Positions 24,611 to 46,536 of a stretch of 64,000 bases of DNA are shown here, piece after piece; positions within the stretch are counted from its first letter, which is position 1; every line of letters begins with the position of its first letter. The DNA is from Tomocerus qinae (Eukaryota > Arthropoda > Collembola > Entomobryomorpha > Tomoceridae). The notes below the pieces were generated by a model. It saw only the letters and a list, made by a program, of their open reading frames with translations, made no database searches and had not been told where the DNA came from. The stretch lies in the NCBI GenBank assembly GCA_020055645.1, contig CM034546.1, forward strand, positions 71,424,001-71,488,000, in the 5' to 3' direction. The position numbers were made by a program, and so were the translations under genes.

Positions 24611-24612
24611 TG

Positions 24613-24944
24613 ATCTAGGGGACTTTCTAGCATCCTTTTTTATGTTTCCAAAAAGTTCCCAAATGATTATTATCATTAAAATTAATTCTAAATCATCATC
24701 ATCATAAAATAACAATCAGTACCTTGTTGCCGGTCACTATTATTCGGTCTTTTTTGACCTAACCTAATTAAAAATAGTTTATCTTTTATTAGGTTAGGTC
24801 AGAAAAGAGGCGAAAATAGTGACCGCTGCTTAAATTCAACAATTATTTAGTCTGCCTTCGGGAGCATTTTGAAAATGGAAAAAGGGTGCTAGAAAGTCCC
24901 TGGGGACTTTCTAGCACCTGCAGATGCTAGAAAGTCCCCTAGAT
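24613..24944. mobile_element. Foldback MITE with 9-bp TSD CAACCTATG
   Basis: Terminal inverted repeats begin ATCTAGGGGACTTTCTAGCA and are perfect for at least 22 bp. An inner pair (CGGTCACTATT with GACCTAACCTAAT against ATTAGGTTAGGTC with AATAGTGACCG) continues the fold. The identical 9-mer CAACCTATG flanks both ends (24604-24612, 24945-24953). A 9-bp duplication suggests Mutator-like mobilisation. There is no coding capacity. Confidence 0.88.
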
Positions 24945-24953
24945 CAACCTATG

Positions 24954-32871: not shown

Positions 32872-33266
32872 GGTTGGGTTGGTGCAATGTGTCCCTCTAA
32901 GTTAAAGTACCACGTACTCACGGACCCTCTATCATCTATATCTCAGAATATTAATTTAGACATGACCCCCCAAAGTTTCATCGGATCTTCATCGAACATG
33001 GCCTAGAGGTTACGTTTCCACCCTCCCCACCCCGCACCCCTAACCTAACCTAAATGAAATAAACATAATAAACGATTTTAGGTCCAAAACCGGTGGAATG
33101 TCATTTTTTCCCATACCCCCGTCGGGGGTGGGGAGGGTGTAAACGTGACCTTCAGGTCATGTCCGATAAACATCCGACGAAAATTGGGGGGTCATGTCTA
33201 AATATTCTGAGATATAGAGGGTCCGTGGTACTTTAACTTAGAGGGACACATTGCACCAACCCAACC
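32872..33266. mobile_element. Foldback element with 9-bp TSD CGATTTCAT
   Basis: Long inverted arms of roughly 150 bp start GGTTGGGTTGGTGCAATGTG and end in the complement. Both arms carry TCCCTCTAAGTTAAAGTACC and GACATGACCCCCCAA. The 9-mer CGATTTCAT flanks both ends (32863-32871, 33267-33275). A leading G and a 9-bp duplication fit Mutator-like elements. It sits about 250 bp upstream of the importin alpha ATG. Confidence 0.9.
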
Positions 33267-36267: not shown

Positions 36268-38039
36268 TTAAGGTGCCTGAGGAACCACATCCTCATAATT
36301 TGGTGGTGGCATTGATTCTGGGGCACGAACTGGTATCCCTGTTCTTGTGTTGACAGAATGCTGATAAGAAAAAAATTAGTACATCAATTACTGGTTTACT
36401 ACATGCATTTTAAATTGATAGTATATTAGCGATAAAATATGGCTCTGATTTTGTAATGCCACTATGCGGAAAGTCATTATACCATCAGCATTCCTTTGCA
36501 TTATAGTAAATAGTAAATGACATATATTAGTATTGTAGACATATATTACCTACTATTGCGTATTAAAAAACTGAAAAACGCTGTATAATTTATACTAGCT
36601 GAATTTATATAAAATATAGGCTTTCAACACTTGTAATGTTAAGTAAGATATTTGGCTTTTAGAAATTTTTAGGTACAAATACGGATCTTAATTATACAGA
36701 TGCTGTGATGCTGCTCTAAATAGGTTTAAATGTATAATCAAGGCTCATGTAATGATGTTGGTTCATTAAGGGCTTTTAAAGCAAAAAAATGGTACATAAT
36801 ATAAGCTTACCACAGTTGCAACTTGAACAGTATGGGCGACGACAAAAGTGGTACCCTCCAATCTATTCTGCAACATTCTCCGTCTTCTGTATCTCACTAC
36901 GATAATAACCAAAAAGCACACGGCTGCAGCTATAACTGGGCCCACAATATACCAAATGTAGGAACCTAAAGATAACAATTGACAATAATTTCACTGTAGT
37001 TATTCAATATGGGTTTTAATTACTACGGTAAACTAGAAGAGATGTGTTTAAGGTTATTTTTAAATTCGTTTATATATCCGAAATTCCTGTAATTCATTTG
37101 CTGATAAAACATCAAGCAATAGGTGACAGGTATGTCATATCAAAATATATAGTAACACAATATAGTAAATATAATCTTACTGGAGCCGTAGTCGTAGTCG
37201 TAATCAGATTTGCAATACAACGCATCACAATAGGCTTTATCTTCATCATTATAAGTGTCTGGACAATTTCGACGGTTGTTACATATAAGGAATAAAGAAT
37301 CGTATATGCATTGGCGCTGCCTTATTTCGCTATCAGGATCTTTACAATGATCAGGCACCGACAAGCAATCGAAAGAAAACTCTTTTGGGCATTTCTCATT
37401 TGTTTCTGCAAATTGTATTTTTAAAATCCACAAATTGATTATTTGGGTGCATATATTTGAAATATTTATCCAAAAATGTCAGAATCTATTTATAAAAATT
37501 ACCGAGGAAAGAAGTAACTGTAATAAATAATCGCGTATTTACACCCCAGTCTCCAGTATCATTTACTACCACAAAAAATGCATCCGCATCTTTTAAGGAA
37601 GCGGTACTCAGTGTTTGATTACAAGTCCATTTTGTTGTATAATTAACGGAACCAGAAGTCTTAATAATTTTCGCTGTTGGTGCGGGTCCTGCATCTCTGC
37701 ATCGAAATTCGTCCAATGCCAAATATAACTTCAAATCGTATTTTAATCCCGTTTTCAATTTGTAACTGTACTTAGTCCATCTTTTTGCAGGGTAAAGTTC
37801 AGCGTTACTATAAGACGAATAACCTTCTCCCATTTCTTCGGGGTACCAAGACTCAATTTGTCTGGCGTCATTCTGAAAATCTTTAAAGCAATAAATTATT
37901 TTTCACTTTTCAATATAATTAAAAATAAAAGTTGTATAATATATTCACCTAAATTTTTAGGAGCGTTTTGTGAATCACTGAATGAAATACTAAACAAGGA
38001 GAATAAGAAAAATAATTCGTAAATATAGTATAACTTCAT
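36268..38039 (-). CDS. Tandem membrane protein A: ectodomain-LDLa-TM with PPNYEDVV tail
   Basis: Five exons on the minus strand: 37949-38039, 37503-37880, 37181-37405, 36811-36965 and 36268-36360. All phases agree, giving 313 residues. Exon 1 is a signal peptide. Exon 2 holds a beta-rich ectodomain of about 110 residues (WTKYSYKLKTGLKYDLKLYL, then DEFRCRD) that I cannot name; CUB-like is possible. Exon 3 is an LDLa-like module with eight cysteines (CPKEFSFDC to NDEDKAYC). Exon 4 is the TM helix (WYIVGPVIAAAVCFLVIIVV) with an RYRRRRM stop-transfer. Exon 5 is a cytoplasmic tail with PPNYEDVV, a PPxY/NPxY-type signal for WW-domain or endocytic partners. Two paralogues follow at higher coordinates in the same orientation. 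Of the three copies, only this one keeps the full tail. Confidence 0.8.
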
Positions 38040-38525
38040 TTTGAATTTGTTGCGACAAATATGGAAATGACAAATGCATTTATCGTACCAAAATTATTTC
38101 ATCACTGCTGCAACATTTTAAGTAAGTGTATGAGTGTATGAGTCGTTCCCTGACCACTTGTGTAATCAGTTCTTGTCCAATTATGTTAAACATTTGAGAA
38201 CAATGATTATTTTATCAATATATTTTGTAATAGCTTTCAGAAGAAAAATCGGCATTTTTTTCTTCTTTTATCATTGTGTTAAATCATTCTTTTTAAATGA
38301 GTGTTATATTTCATTCTATTTGTCGTCGAACGATGACGTTGCCATTTGCAATCGGAAAGATAACGTACCGTATGAAAGATTCAGAAATTGTGTGCATCAA
38401 AGTTGTTAGATGTACAGATATAATTATCCCGTCGCAGCGCAATCACCTTAGATAAAAATTGACAGTTAAGCATAAATTAATGCAAAGTTATACATATGCG
38501 GTGAGCCGTAGATAGGAATTGGTAT

Positions 38526-38763
38526 GAGGGAACAAAAAAGGACCTTTTTTAAATATTTTTGCCTTTTTTATTAAAAAGGTGGAAGTTAGTTTTTTTAAAG
38601 CAGTCCGTTTTTGCCTTTTTATCTTTTTTGATGTATCAGCGTGCCCCATTTACTTCTATTGTACATGTAAATAAGGTAAATGGGTATAAAGGAATGCATT
38701 TTTTTTAAAAATTCGTAGTACTTTTTTTACTTTTTTGTAAAAAAAAGTGCCTTTTGTTCCCTG
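38526..38763. mobile_element. hAT-type MITE upstream of paralogue A, TSD ATTGGTAT
   Basis: The ends are GAGGGAACAAAAAAGGAC and GTGCCTTTTGTTCCCTG, flanked by ATTGGTAT at 38518-38525 and 38764-38771. The 8-bp duplication and CAGGG-type end (first base changed to G here) indicate hAT. The same insertion is present at the matching position upstream of paralogue B (42411), so it predates that duplication. Confidence 0.85.
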
Positions 38764-39043
38764 ATTGGTATTTGACGATCGATAGAGATAACAATGTTAA
38801 TAGTGAATTAATCAAATTCATATCTATTTATTTATTACAGTAGTTGTAGATACGACAATAGTAGAAAGGTGGCAAGATTAAGACAAGCATCATCAATCTG
38901 AGCCTGAGCTGCACGGTATTCAACTACGTAAAAATTGATTTATTTGCATGGAAAGTCAATTACTTCGATCTTCATACTTTCATATATATGGGGCCTATAC
39001 AGCATAATATAAACTCATGAAATAACTGCTTGTACTAGTTCAT

Positions 39044-40242
39044 AAGATATATTTAAATGCCCTTGTCGAGGATTAGCCCATAGGACATATGTCAATTTTC
39101 ATTACATATATTAACATTACAAGTAATGGGTAATATTCATCCACAAGCCGAATAACTGACAACGTCAGAAGAAATATTATATGCTTACACTATATAACCA
39201 TACATAAAACTTTTTACTAAACGAGTGAACGAAGGCTACAGCCCTCTCCCTATGCCACACACACGACTCTCCAGGACATTCGCACAACTGGAATTGAAAT
39301 AACATTCCGCACTTACAGATTGTGACTGTGACAATTACCCAAACACCGTAGATGTTGACAACATTTAGATTAGTCCAAGTTAATTTTAACAACTCCATGA
39401 TCTTAGCCACTGACCAAATTTCAACTCAATGATAATGCCCCCCGCCACGGTATAGGTACATAAAACATATTTAGTATTATTTACTATTTTTCATGCAACA
39501 GCACGACTAAAATGTTAGATTATACCATTAATTTTTTACTATAACATACACCATACCCGTGTTAGACCATTACAGTATAGACAGTGGAATCTAAAATATA
39601 TTCACAGACGTTACCCAAAGTATTCTTATACTTGGGAGTTTTGCAGCCGGCAAATCATATACTTGCTTAAAAGTGAGCCAAAACTCGTTGCGTGTGAGTG
39701 TGTCTTCTCTTTTCCGTGTGCCCCTGTACCTTTTCACTCATCAACTGACCGGACGTGTGTTTGTAGAAGAGAAAGGTAAGATACGACGCTGTGTTGTGAG
39801 ATAGGTCAGACAAGTTGCTAGTAAGAAAAGTCTTCCACCGTCCATTCGTTCGTCTCCAGGTATTTTACCTCACTGCAATCATACTATTTCCGTAATTAGT
39901 TAGCCCATTGAGAACAGAATGTAGCCAGCCGCTGCAACTTATCTCCCCTCTGCATTCCAGAATCGCCGACACAACCCCCTACGTAAATCCACGGCCATAA
40001 TTTCCAGAACCTATCTTCTTGTCATGCGGTTTTCCAGAAAAATACACATTTCACAAAATTCGCCATCATTACACACTCCTCACTAATATGTTCGAAAAGT
40101 TCGAAGCACAAGGGACACAGATCTAAAAAGTTTCTCTCTATTACCACTTTTCTTACAAAAATCTCCACCGATACACGGACACCGCCACACATACAACCTC
40201 ACACTTCAAGTACCAACTGCCAACCTGCTTGTACTAGTTAAA
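39044..40242. mobile_element. ~1.2-kb insertion flanked by 15-bp direct repeats
   Basis: CTGCTTGTACTAGTT occurs at 39029-39043 and again at 40228-40242. The corresponding interval between paralogues B and C has it once (near 42908-42930), directly joined to the same downstream sequence, so it is an empty site. The insert has no obvious poly(A). It carries a 77-codon minus-strand frame (39177-39410; IVTVTICKCGMLFQFQLCEC) of doubtful status. Splice-like sequences occur near 39770-39860. A duplication of this length suggests target-primed insertion. Confidence 0.7.
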
Positions 40243-40287
40243 TTGAATAAAAATGTTGTGTCAAGGGTCATGAAAAACCACAACGTC

Positions 40288-42097
40288 TTAAGTTGGTGGT
40301 GCCATTGACACTGGTTCACGAACTGGTATCCCTGTTCTTGTGTTGACAGGATTCTGATCGGAAATAATTAGTACATCAATTACTGGTTTACGACATGCAT
40401 TTTAAATTGATAGTATATTAGCGATAAAATATTGCTTTGATTTCTGGTTTCATAAAGGCACTATGCGGAAAGTTATTACCATCATCATTCATTTGCATTA
40501 TGGTAAATGACATATTAGTATTGTAGACATATATTACCTACTATTGGGTATTAAAACTTACAGAAACTGAAACTTAACGCAACTTAAACTGAAAAATAAC
40601 TGAAACTGAAAATAACGGAAAAACGCTGAATACTTTATACTAGCTACTAGCTGAATTGTTAGGCTTTCAAGACTTGCAATTTTTAATGTTAATTAAGATA
40701 TTTGGTTCTTAGAAATTTTTAGGTACAAATACGTATCTTAATTATAATACAGTTGCAGCTCTAAATATTATGCTTAATAAATGTATAATCAATTAAGACT
40801 CATATTGATGTTGGTTCATTAAGGGCTTTTAAAGCAAAAAAATGGTACATACCACAGTTGCAACTTGAACGGTACGGGCGACGACAAAAGTAGTACCCTC
40901 CAACTTATTCTGCAACATTCTTCGTCTTCTGTATCTCACAGCGATAATAACCAAAAAGCACACGGCTCCAGCTATAGCTGGTCCCACAATATACCAAATG
41001 TATGAACCTAAAGATAACGATTGACAATTATTTCACTATAGTTATTCTTATTCAATGTGGGTTTTAATTACTACGGTAAACTAGAAGAGATGTGTTTAAG
41101 GTTATTTTTAAATTCGTTTATATATCCGAAATTCCTGTAATTCATTTGCTGATAAAACATCAAGCAATAGGTGACAGGTATGTCATATCAAAATATATAG
41201 TAACACAATATAGTAAATATAATCTTACTGGAGCCGTAGTCGTAGTCGTAATCAGATTTGCAATACAACGCATCACAATAGGCTTTATCTTCATCATTAT
41301 AAGTGTCTGGACAATTTCGACGGTTGTTACATATAAGGAATAAAGAATCGTATATACATTGGCGTTGCCTTATTTCGCTATCAGGATCTTTACAATGATC
41401 AGGCACCGTCGAGCAATCGAAAGAAAAATCGTCTGGACATTTCTTATTTGTTTCTACAAATGGAATTTTTTAAATTCAAAATTTAAATTCTTTGAATATA
41501 TATTTTGAAATATTTATTAAAAAATGTCAGAATCTATTTATAAAAATTACCATAGTAAGAAGTAACTGTAATAAATAATCGTGTATTTACAGTCCAGTCT
41601 CCAGTTTCATTTATTAACACAAAAAATGCATCCGCGTCTTTTAAGAAAGCGGTACTCAGTGTCTCATTGCATATCCATGTATGTGAATTGTTACGGGAAT
41701 CAGAAGTGGATATAATATTCACAGTTGGTGGAATTCCAACATCTCTGCATCGAAATTCGTCCAATGCCAAATATAACTTCAAATCGTATTTTAATCCCGT
41801 TTTCAATTTGTAACTGTACTTCGTCCATCCTATTTCAGGGTAAAGTTCAGCCACATTGTTAGAAGACGAATACCGCCCTTCTCCCATAAATTCGTTTAGC
41901 CATAAGTTCCTTTGTCTGATACCGTTCTGCAAATGCAAATCTTTAAAGCAACAAATTATTTTTGCACTTTACAATATAATTAAAAATAAAAGTTGTAAAA
42001 TATATTTACCTAAATTTTTAGGAGCGCTTTGTGAATAACTGAATGAAATACTAAACAAGGAGAATAGGAAAAATACGTAAATATAGTTTAACTTCAT
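40288..42097 (-). CDS. Tandem membrane protein B: ectodomain-LDLa-TM, shortened tail
   Basis: Five minus-strand exons: 42010-42097, 41551-41940, 41229-41453, 40853-41007 and 40288-40353. Phases agree, giving 307 residues. Domain order is as in copy A: signal peptide, beta-rich ectodomain, eight-cysteine LDLa-like exon, TM exon. The last exon ends SMAPPT-stop, because the codons encoding Asn-Tyr in copy A read Thr-stop here with no indel. The PPNYEDVV tail motif is therefore lost, although the DNA beyond still resembles it. The LDLa exon and the following intron are almost identical to copy A, while exon 2 is closer to copy C. The ectodomain is N-glycosylated by prediction (NNS, NET sequons). 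Function unknown. Confidence 0.78.
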
Positions 42098-42979: not shown

Positions 42980-45336
42980 TTAAGTTGGTGGTGCCATTGA
43001 CACTGGGTCACGAACTGGTATCCCTGTTCTTGTGTTGACAGGATTCTGAATATTCGGATCAGAAAAATTAGTACATCAATTACTTGTTTACTACATGCAT
43101 TTTAATTTAATAGTATATTATCGATATAATATACTGTTCTGATTTTATAATGCCACCATGCGGAAAGTCATTAGCACCAACTACCAACATTCGTTTGTAT
43201 TACAGTAAAATATGACATAGTAGTCTTGTAGAACTATTATTGGGTAAAATTGAAAAACGCTGTACTATAGCTGAATTGAGGCTTTCAAGTCTTGTCATTA
43301 TTTGTAGTTTTAAGATACTTTGTTTTTAGACGTTTTCATGTACAAATACGGATCTTAATTATGCAGATGTTGTTTTAAATATATCCTTAGATACAAGTAC
43401 GTATACAGAACTGAGTTTCAGAGGGGGCTAATATTTCAAATACATATTTTAAATAGTTATATTGGCCCGCAGTGCGAAAATTTTTGGCATTTTTTGACGA
43501 AAATGAGTCAAAAATGGCAAATAATTGCGGAGCACAAAGTGTTTTGCTATTTTGAGAAATTATATTTCGGGGAGTAGGGGCTTCAGCCCGTAAAGCGCCA
43601 CCTCAATACGTCCTTGCTTAAATATATAATCAAGGCACATGTAATGATTCTATTTTATTAAGGGCTTTTAAAGCAAAAAATGGTACATACTATTATGAGG
43701 TTACCACAGGCACAGATGCCACTGGAACCGTATGGGCGACGACAAAAGTAGTACCCTCCAACCTATTCTGCAACATTCTCCGTCTTCTGTATCTCAGTAC
43801 GACAATAGCCAAAAAGGCCCCGGCTATAGCTATTATAGCTGGTCCCACAATATACCAAATGTAAGAACCTGTAGATAGCATTATAATAATGTTAACACCG
43901 TAGTAATTCAATATAAATATTAATTGTCACTGTAAACAAGAAGAGTTGTACATTTAATCTTATTTTTGAATTCATTTATATATTCGAAATTCCAATACTA
44001 ATTAATTTGCACATAAAACATCAAGCGTTGCGTGATAGGTATGTCCTATCAAAGATATAGTAACACAATATAATAATTATAATCTTACTGGGACCGTAGT
44101 CGAATTTGTAGTGATGATCAGATTTGCAATACCTAGCATCACAGTAGGCTTTATCTTCATCATTATAACTGTCTGGGCAATTTCGATGTTTGTCACATAT
44201 AAGTCTTAAAGAATCGGGTTGAAGTAAGGCAGTGGTTGCACATTTTAAAAATCACCCCATGAAAAACAGGGCATTCCAACGGCCTAATACACTGTCGCTT
44301 TGTAATTTGCACGCGCATTTTTACACACTTTGCAATTTCTATAGCTCAACTGCAAAACCTCTGGAGGTTAAACCTAAAAGGTTTGCAAACCGATGCAAAG
44401 TGCAAATTAGTATTCAAATTGAATTGCGACTGAAAATTTATCCCATTGTGCCCAGTTCCTGGACAAAAATATTGCTGAACGCATTGTGCAAAATAATGGT
44501 GTAGTAGGCCCCAGGACCCGCTTTCGAGGGCCTAACCTAATTAAAAAAACTATTGATAGGTAATTATGCAACCACTGCCTTACTCCGAAAATGAATTGTA
44601 TATGCATTGACGTGGCCTTAATTCGCTATCAGGGTCTTTACAATGATCAGGCACTGACAAGCAATCGAAAGAAAACTCTTCTGGGCATTTCTCATTTGTT
44701 TCTGCAAATTGAATTTTTTTAAATTCAAAATTTAAATTCTTTGAGTATATGTTTTGAAATATTTATCGAAAAGTGTCAGAATCTATTTATAAAAATTACC
44801 ATAGTAAGAAGTAACTGTAATAAATAATCGCGTATCTACAGTCCAGTCTCCAGTTTCATTTATTAACACAAAAAATGCGTCCGCATCTTTTAAGGAAGCG
44901 ATACTCTGCGTCTCATTGCATATCCATGTATGTGTATAGTTACGGGAATTAGAAGTCGATGTAATATTCACAGTTGGTGGAGTTCCGGCATCTCTGCATC
45001 GAAATTCGTCCAATGCCAAATATAATTTCAATTTGTATTTTAATCCCATTTTCAATTTGTAACTGTACTTCGTCCATCCTCTTTCAGGATAAAGCTCGAC
45101 ATTGTAATAAGACAAAGGCCCTTCTCCTAAATCTTCGTTTCGCCAGAAGGAACTTCTGATTTTATTCTGCAAATCTTTGGAGTAACGAATTATTTTCGTA
45201 CTTGTCAATATCTTTTGGAATAAATGTTGTGTAAATTATTATATCAACCTGCATTTCCAAGAACGTATGAAGAACGTAGAAAGAATGAAATCCTAATCAG
45301 GGAGAAGAGGAAAGCCAATCCATATTTTAACTTCAT
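42980..45336 (-). CDS. Tandem membrane protein C: LDLa exon split by a MITE-derived intron
   Basis: Minus-strand exons as modelled: 45249-45336, 44800-45174, 44584-44701, 44089-44204, 43705-43868 and 42980-43045. This gives 308 residues with all phases agreeing. Copies A and B have a single LDLa exon. Here a 362-bp transposon-like block interrupts it. Reading straight through gives GAG-TAA at the element edge. If it is spliced from GTAAGG (44583-44578) to the AG at 44206-44205, the frame is restored, one residue is gained and all eight cysteines remain (QCIYNSFSELIC). The TM exon (IIAIAGAFLAIVVLRYRRRR) and a short SMAPPT-stop tail stay open, which suggests the gene is still maintained. It could instead be a recent pseudogene; RNA would decide. 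Confidence 0.68.
43394..43616. mobile_element. hAT-type MITE in the last intron of paralogue C
   Basis: Left end CAAGTACGTATACAG and right end CAATACGTCCTTG, with near-identical 8-bp flanks CTTAGATA (43386-43393) and CTTAAATA (43617-43624). Internal AAAATGAGTCAAAAATGGC matches the style of the element at 8607. Same family as the 8607 and 8888 elements. Confidence 0.72.
44223..44584. mobile_element. MITE inserted in the LDLa exon of paralogue C; supplies a splice donor
   Basis: Perfect 18-bp terminal inverted repeats AGTAAGGCAGTGGTTGCA at 44223-44240 and, complemented, at 44567-44584. The end can also be read as a TA-flanked AGGCAGTGG element (Tc1/mariner-like). No longer target duplication is clear. 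Because both ends read A-GTAAGG inward, the element offers a good 5' splice donor in either orientation. It contains CCTAACCTAATTAAAAA, also seen in the 24613 element. No coding capacity. Confidence 0.85.
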
Positions 45337-45740: not shown

Positions 45741-46051
45741 AGGATATACCCAAGATAATTACCATAGTGATTATTATTGGGACTGGCGTCAGGCAGCCTG
45801 ATAGTCAAAGCAAAACAATTAAAACTCAATTATTTTCTTACTTCATTTCCATGGACATCAGTAGGGGCTATCCCTATCTCTGTCCTATCAGTCCCTATCT
45901 CACCCTTGGTTTACTTGTATTCATTTTGGTACAAAATTGTCGAATTTTGTAATAAAATGAAAAAAAATGGATTTCAATTGTTTTGCTTTGACTATCAGGC
46001 TACCTGACGCCAGTCCCAATAATAATCACTAAGGTCTTGGGATATACCCAT
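45741..46051. mobile_element. Foldback MITE with ~75-bp arms
   Basis: The left arm GGATATACCCAAGA leads to GTGATTATTATTGGGACTGG and GATAGTCAAAGCAAAACAAT. The right arm is its reverse complement, with a single mismatch in the CAGGCAGCCTGA / CAGGTAGCCTGA part. No matching target duplication was identified. Confidence 0.82.
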
Positions 46052-46328: not shown

Positions 46329-46536
46329 TCACAGTAATTTGATCCCCTTGGTTACTCCCCACATACAGTAATGCAATACCCAAAATAGCAAAAATTTTGC
46401 TGTTGCTATTGACTGTTTTGAATGCTGTATTTAACAGCCACCCAAATTCCCATACAAAATAGGAACTTATGGTTGCAAATTTTTTGTTACTTTGGGTATT
46501 GCATTACTGTATGTGAAGGGGATCAAATTACTGTGA
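46329..46536. mobile_element. Foldback MITE (TCACAGTAATTTGATCCCC ends)
   Basis: TCACAGTAATTTGATCCCC at the left and its complement at the right, continued by CAGTAATGCAATACCCAAA against TTTGGGTATTGCATTACTG. Flanks CATCAC and CATCGC are similar but not identical. A diverged relative of the left end is at about 15128. Confidence 0.82.

Follow-up and report, generated by a model that had tools for sequence, protein, structure and literature searches.

A 1994 paper by Giroux on the maize Ds element reportedly concerns a transposon-derived intron. Insertion of a transposon is one of seven routes of intron gain set out in a review (PMC3443670), whose Table 1 gives 35 events in Oryza, Drosophila, Oikopleura and Zea, none of them entered there as demonstrated in vivo. 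Introners were found in 175 of 3,325 genomes by Gozashti et al. (2022, PMC9860276); as described there, introner families comprise 5 to over 2,000 similar introns per genome, spread over many genes, and some families supply the 5′ splice site themselves and use a 3′ site that lies at the place of insertion (Fig. 2C of that paper). Neointrons of Daphnia, as presented in another paper (PMC4202315), are ascribed to double-strand-break repair.

Here we analyse a 64,000-nucleotide stretch of the genome of Tomocerus qinae (the window), in which a MITE interrupts an exon of one member, C, of a small gene family. We consider it probable that C underwent a single transposon-derived intron gain and that the insert is spliced out, which would make C a neat candidate for the birth of an intron from a jumping element that carries its own splice signal.

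Gene copies and the nested insert

Copies A, B and C stand in tandem on the minus strand of the window, and each is modelled with four exons from an A/B/C alignment (290 aa for C, 293 for A and 297 for B; Table 1). In paralogues A and B exon 3 runs through without a break; in C it is interrupted. In a further relative, D (contig C1, C1:72687124-72687381), the site is uninterrupted at the DNA level; the region (C1:72686900-72687600) is a decayed pseudogene with in-frame stops and retained intron-like sequence. Similarity between copies A, B and C is patchy (window 36956-42097 and 43869-44799). The original prediction called the interrupted exon an LDLa exon. Its LDLa-like cysteine pattern is an assignment made by eye, and profile support for it is absent, with no Pfam family matching the exon, from C or from A, up to E=10; none matched spliced C up to E=0.1, and protein A gave DUF6546 alone, under its cut-off. 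A search for relatives of protein A in a 5.8-billion set left 0 of 575 candidates at E<=0.001, and Rfam gave nothing at gathering score. The window also gives arrestin-like, ligand-gated-channel, quiver-like and armadillo matches, as would be expected of an animal genome.

A block does interrupt exon 3 of C, as had been claimed, and its extent is 374 bp instead of the 362 bp first given, because other copies of the element end in GGTTGA followed by AGTAAGGCAGTGGTTGCA. The perfect 18-bp inverted ends are present, at 44567-44584 and 44223-44240; they stand as an inverted repeat and not as full termini, being the inner part of a longer end that reads GGTTGAAGTAAGGCAGTGGTTGCA in the consensus from fetched copies. 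A 9-bp target copy was considered and replaced by one of 8 bp on the evidence of the flanks of other MITE copies. Taking the block as one MITE was likewise ruled out by an insert search and copy alignments, which resolve two nested elements: a MITE is there, with a second element of 230 bp inside it.

The family was characterized in a genome of 334 Mb in 115 contigs. With up to 3 mismatches, the 24-mer end occurs at 636+639 sites (1,275), against 2+0 for a reversed control, and the 18-mer AGTAAGGCAGTGGTTGCA, with up to 2 mismatches, at 532+524 sites, against 6+4 for the reversed control. At least 42 other rows match the right arm of the C element (40 of 372 candidates scored), mostly over query bases 23-95, and these matches therefore reach the MITE end. 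The 15 copies aligned are 142-155 bp long; three of them (L050_1882, L054_997 and L065_1500) are misoriented in the alignment, with 64-71 differences, and were retained in the majority consensus. Among the 17 complete copies from 19 loci (L050-L068), the 8-bp flanks are identical in 4 and differ at no more than 2 positions in 12, a closeness that random 8-mer pairs reach with a probability of 0.004. Inverted ends common to many short copies and a target duplication of fixed length (8 bp) are thus both found, and on these features the insert can be assigned to a MITE family that numbers several hundred copies. In the 200 kb around the window, BLAST of the arms and a search for the 18-mer with up to 3 mismatches gave no other MITE copy. 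The 18-mer has 0 matches in viral contigs, a set that may omit records near the genome of the window. The stretch C1:122.9-135.9 Mb holds 59 among the 100 exact end sites listed, in a list that begins at C1, and judging from these sites the MITE appears to be strongly concentrated locally in this 13-Mb stretch. At one locus (L062, near C1:123630002) the right MITE end recurs several times in steps of 47 or 94 bp, which by its sequence is a small tandem array of MITE ends.

The inner element belongs to another family. A search with the whole insert returned at least 41 rows beyond C (40 of 584 candidates scored), all inside query bases 69-304. This inner unit has inverted ends of its own, of the GGCCTATTACAC type, and a CCWGG target copy; by eye, its left and right versions are the same in 6 of the 27 copies fetched. 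Copies of this nested-element family (L002-L028), with ends of the type GGCCTATTACACC, are 68-78% identical to each other. Since the MITE consensus holds the empty site GTCCTGGTATGCCC, and CCTGG and GTTGG flank the inner unit in C, the proposed intron is a transposon within a transposon. More inverted-repeat blocks with long, well-matched arms lie at window positions 24611-24946, 32872-33266, 45761-46035 and 46329-46536, and these are probably further MITEs.

Table 1. Features of the insert and of gene copies A, B and C (positions in the window)
Feature	Position	Strand	Basis
Gene C exon 1, with start codon and, by eye, a signal-peptide-like N-terminus	45249..45336	-	A/B/C alignment model
Gene C exon 2	44800..45174	-	A/B/C alignment model
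Gene C exon 3, left part; final 15 nt are left target copy (8) and MITE (7 nt)	44584..44701	-	gene model and MITE alignment
Left target-site copy CAATTCAT, exonic; 2/8 differ from right copy	44591..44598	-	sequence
Whole insert, MITE and nested element, 374 bp	44217..44590	-	ends of other copies
Outer hexamer of left MITE end, TTTCGG vs consensus GGTTGA, 4/6 changed; remains exonic	44585..44590	-	MITE alignment
Left inner inverted repeat AGTAAGGCAGTGGTTGCA; donor GTAAGG at 44583-44578	44567..44584	-	sequence
Proposed new intron, 379 nt, GTAAGG...TTCTTTAAG	44205..44583	-	predicted from sequence
CCTGG, left target copy of nested element	44511..44515	-	sequence
Nested 230-bp inverted-repeat element, another family	44281..44510	-	genome copies
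GTTGG, diverged right target copy of nested element	44276..44280	-	sequence
CTTAC, possible branch site; A (44225) 20 nt before last intron base	44224..44228	-	inferred from sequence; motif common
Right MITE end, 0 mismatches to 24-mer consensus (C1:71468217-71468240)	44217..44240	+	genome end search
Right target-site copy CGATTCTT, intronic; same as A and B	44209..44216	-	sequence
Gene C exon 3, right part	44089..44204	-	gene model
Gene C exon 4, with stop codon and, by eye, a transmembrane-like segment	43693..43868	-	gene model
Gene A exon 3, uninterrupted	41229..41453	-	paralogue comparison
Gene B exon 3, uninterrupted	37181..37405	-	paralogue comparison

Predicted splicing and reading frame

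In the explanation that we prefer, ordinary cut-and-paste transposition would have placed the MITE in exon 3 of C, with 8 bp (CGATTCTT) duplicated. The C transcript would then most likely be spliced from GTAAGG, 7 nt inside the left MITE end, to the first AG beyond the right end, which lies 12 nt into host sequence and takes in the second target copy and a further 4 nt. On the left, 15 nt would be gained (8 from the target and 7 from the MITE), roughly offsetting the 12 nt lost on the right and adding one residue in frame, and the nested second element would extend the intron to 379 nt.

The splice sites themselves are where they had been predicted. The donor at the end of the element, A/GTAAGG (here and below, the slash marks the exon boundary), is confirmed as GGA/GTAAGG at 44584/44583, and the acceptor in host sequence, TTCTTTAAG, ends at 44205; the first AG past the right MITE end is the one that restores the frame. 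Splicing between them yields an intact frame, a conceptual product of 290 aa that bears out the claim of one added residue (YNSFSELIC where A and B read YDSLFLIC) and of retained exon-3 cysteines, and that also continues intact through the transmembrane-like exon 4, which had been said to stay open. Unspliced, the frame meets the immediate stop that was foreseen, reading ...NSFSE and then TAA, a codon that overlaps the donor GTAA. The consensus for donors is MAG/GTRAGT, and the description of the C donor as consensus-like holds for GTAAG only, the exon-side GGA and the G at +6 being misfits.

To judge from the sequence, the element would give the donor and possibly a branch site, with the acceptor AG coming from the host; the right MITE end probably provides this branch site (CTTAC). 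The occurrence and efficiency of splicing are predictions, as is the branch site. The 18-bp inverted repeat would, by prediction, fold the donor onto the branch-site region (z -7.0), and this hairpin could conceal the donor. A processed copy of spliced C had 0 matches in the genome.

Insertion was modelled by placing the family consensus in turn at the coding positions tested in A and in B, with the first AG as acceptor. In this model, which covers position and frame and not splice-site strength, an in-frame, stop-free product arises at 133 of 789 positions in A and 130 of 801 in B; its length departs from the original by no more than 9 nt at 72/789 and 76/801 positions (about 9% of exon positions) and by no more than 3 nt at 25/789 and 26/801. 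The counts are equal in both orientations. Read-through of the consensus element is open at 0/789 and 0/801 positions, and therefore splicing is needed. GTAAG falls within the first 18 nt in 108 of 5000 random elements. An earlier model, which used provisional ends and a 9-bp copy and in which a filter of '>=4 Y in 8' was not applied, gave 19 to 97 of 20,000 random elements and, for the real ends, 17, 31 and 43 of 185 positions at an absolute length change of <=3, 9 and 30 nt.

Origin of the proposed intron and state of gene C

Target copies that have diverged from each other, CAATTCAT and CGATTCTT, flank the insert in C, and the target is single in A and B; because of this, and because D is uninterrupted, we conclude that C gained the element. 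The acceptor region reads TTTAAGAC in C, TTTATTCC in A and B, and TCTAAACC in D; given the D sequence, the acceptor AG may have needed little change, and the proposal that it required three new changes was rejected. Intron 3 differs at 0.019 between A and B and at 0.20-0.21 between either of them and C, and intron 2 of A is nearer to that of C (0.082) than to that of B (0.156), a pattern that suggests gene conversion among the three copies. Since their third introns are nearly alike, A and B are not independent witnesses, which lends something to the reverse history, in which the interrupted state is ancestral and the intron was lost from A, B and D. We nevertheless hold this history to be extremely improbable. 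Beyond the target being duplicated in C and single in A and B, exact loss from C would leave CAATTCATTTTCGGA+ACTTATATG, which is missing in A and B, and D, by eye, is uninterrupted at the insertion site yet keeps the adjoining intron sequence.

A graver objection to a new working intron is that the insertion may have disabled C. Its fit to splicing would then be fortuitous, and C would be either a recently formed pseudogene or the source of a protein cut short at the donor-overlapping stop. By the NG86 method, dN/dS is 0.157/0.262 for C-A and 0.193/0.305 for C-B; downstream of the insertion it is 0.164/0.245 for C-A, 0.153/0.248 for C-B and 0.063/0.193 for A-B, and about 0.13/0.15 on the C side after the insertion, with A-B subtracted. 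Constraint on C thus appears modest, and its weakness downstream of the insertion would fit a disabled gene, as would the predicted hairpin over the donor, the decay of the sister copy D and the roughly 9% of exon positions at which an in-frame product within 9 nt arises by chance. Against this, the 290 codons of C contain no frameshift or stop and its other inferred splice sites are intact. In simulated neutral decay with an assumed indel ratio of 0.15, a lesion-free frame remains in 10% of runs at 2% divergence and in 1.25% at 3.7%; when substitutions are the only changes, 43% and 22% of runs, respectively, have no stop. Moreover, the MITE outside its outer left hexamer is off the consensus at 9 of 133 positions, which points to some time having elapsed, although part of this change may predate the insertion, and AATAAA follows the stop codon of C where A and B have AATGAA. 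We therefore regard a disabled C as unlikely, with an appreciable chance of being correct all the same; a functional C is favoured, not proved. There is a slim chance that the intron is partly retained or alternatively spliced, the element acting as a switch between a full-length, membrane-bound form and a short one. The imperfect donor and the stable predicted hairpin would suit such a switch, and the truncated form would stop before the transmembrane-like exon 4, but nothing in the sequence calls for regulation.

A single intron gain in C by insertion is thus the reading that we carry forward, with the imperfect fit of the left outer hexamer (4/6 off) and of the left target copy (2/8 off) counting against it. 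For the original claim that a MITE became an intron, what stands is the anatomy of two nested insertions and, as marks of transposon-derived introns, the entry into an exon, the target duplication, the relatives that are free of the insert and the frame that a GT-AG pair leaves intact if the insert is spliced out; the splicing itself is predicted.

The bases that would have become exonic show a further peculiarity. MITE bases kept in the message are changed at 4/7 positions, against 9/132 for intronic ones (P=0.0014), and with the target copies included the figures are 6/15 and 9/140 (P=0.0009); set against the rate in the exons of C (80 C-private differences in 728 positions), 6/15 is less striking (P=0.0036). 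Selection on the new peptide would give this result, as would a left end already altered at insertion. Should rapid change at the exonised bases be confirmed, it would illustrate how a protein adapts to a new intron.

The element family and known systems

The original prediction held that this element family can create introns in either orientation. Mechanically, this is plausible, with GTAAGG at both ends and equal model counts both ways; as a property of the family it is a conjecture, the intron-like copies established being one, that in C. The genome search that had been proposed for the 18-bp end did return its many sites, and among the 17 other complete copies none was flagged as an exonic insertion, in a test that would also miss C. 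In none of these copies does the frame stay open over the empty site for longer than background (longest 116 aa; background median 67, 95% point 289); C itself scores 119, which leaves the test little power, and 13 of the 19 sampled loci lie at C1:123-136 Mb. In one additional copy (L070, C1:5809401; C1:5809260-5809700), the MITE starts 22 nt after a coding-like exon end, AAG/GTAAGG, and ends 6 nt before an AG. The frame can run on to a stop before the MITE, the downstream exon is hypothetical and the flanking 8-mers mismatch; this MITE may fill an intron or sit in a 3′ untranslated region, an ambiguous case that serves as a lead only. The adjacent gene gave Pfam matches below the cut-off only (DUF6387 E=0.01, THR4_C E=0.18), one PDB match at E=0.53 and no second copy in the genome, and so offers no comparison.

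A bolder proposal is that the MITE ends are pre-adapted to splicing in both orientations, that the family is a standing source of introns and that exonised bases evolve fast while the coding sequence heals, as the contrast of 6/15 with 9/140 might indicate. Because each end holds a GTAAGG donor, and its reverse complement, CCTTACTTCAACC, a branch-site motif and a partial pyrimidine tract, the host would need to offer only an AG. We nonetheless find this proposal quite doubtful.

A single case of intron birth makes a useful test object when the element, the target copies, insert-free relatives and the two splice sites are all legible in the sequence. C predicts an exact junction, 44584/44204, and with several hundred copies that have the same donor at their ends, the MITE family makes the rate of intron creation per exonic insertion measurable.

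Most likely, C represents intron gain of a kind already known. Like the transposon-derived introns covered by the review (PMC3443670), it involves a DNA transposon in an exon that signals near its ends allow to be spliced out almost exactly; in that comparison, C alone has a donor inside the TIR, a host acceptor and a nested element, and its splicing is predicted. With introners as described by Gozashti et al. (PMC9860276), it shares a non-autonomous TIR element, a target duplication, one splice site carried and the other co-opted, and added codons, which are described there too (Fig. 2F); a family there means many similar introns, whereas one such intron is established here. The Daphnia neointrons (PMC4202315) resemble C as recent intron gains in an arthropod with short direct repeats at their ends, but are ascribed there to break repair, whereas the C insert belongs to a repeat family. 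As far as these accounts describe their mechanisms, C works like transposon intron gain (PMC3443670) and introners (PMC9860276).
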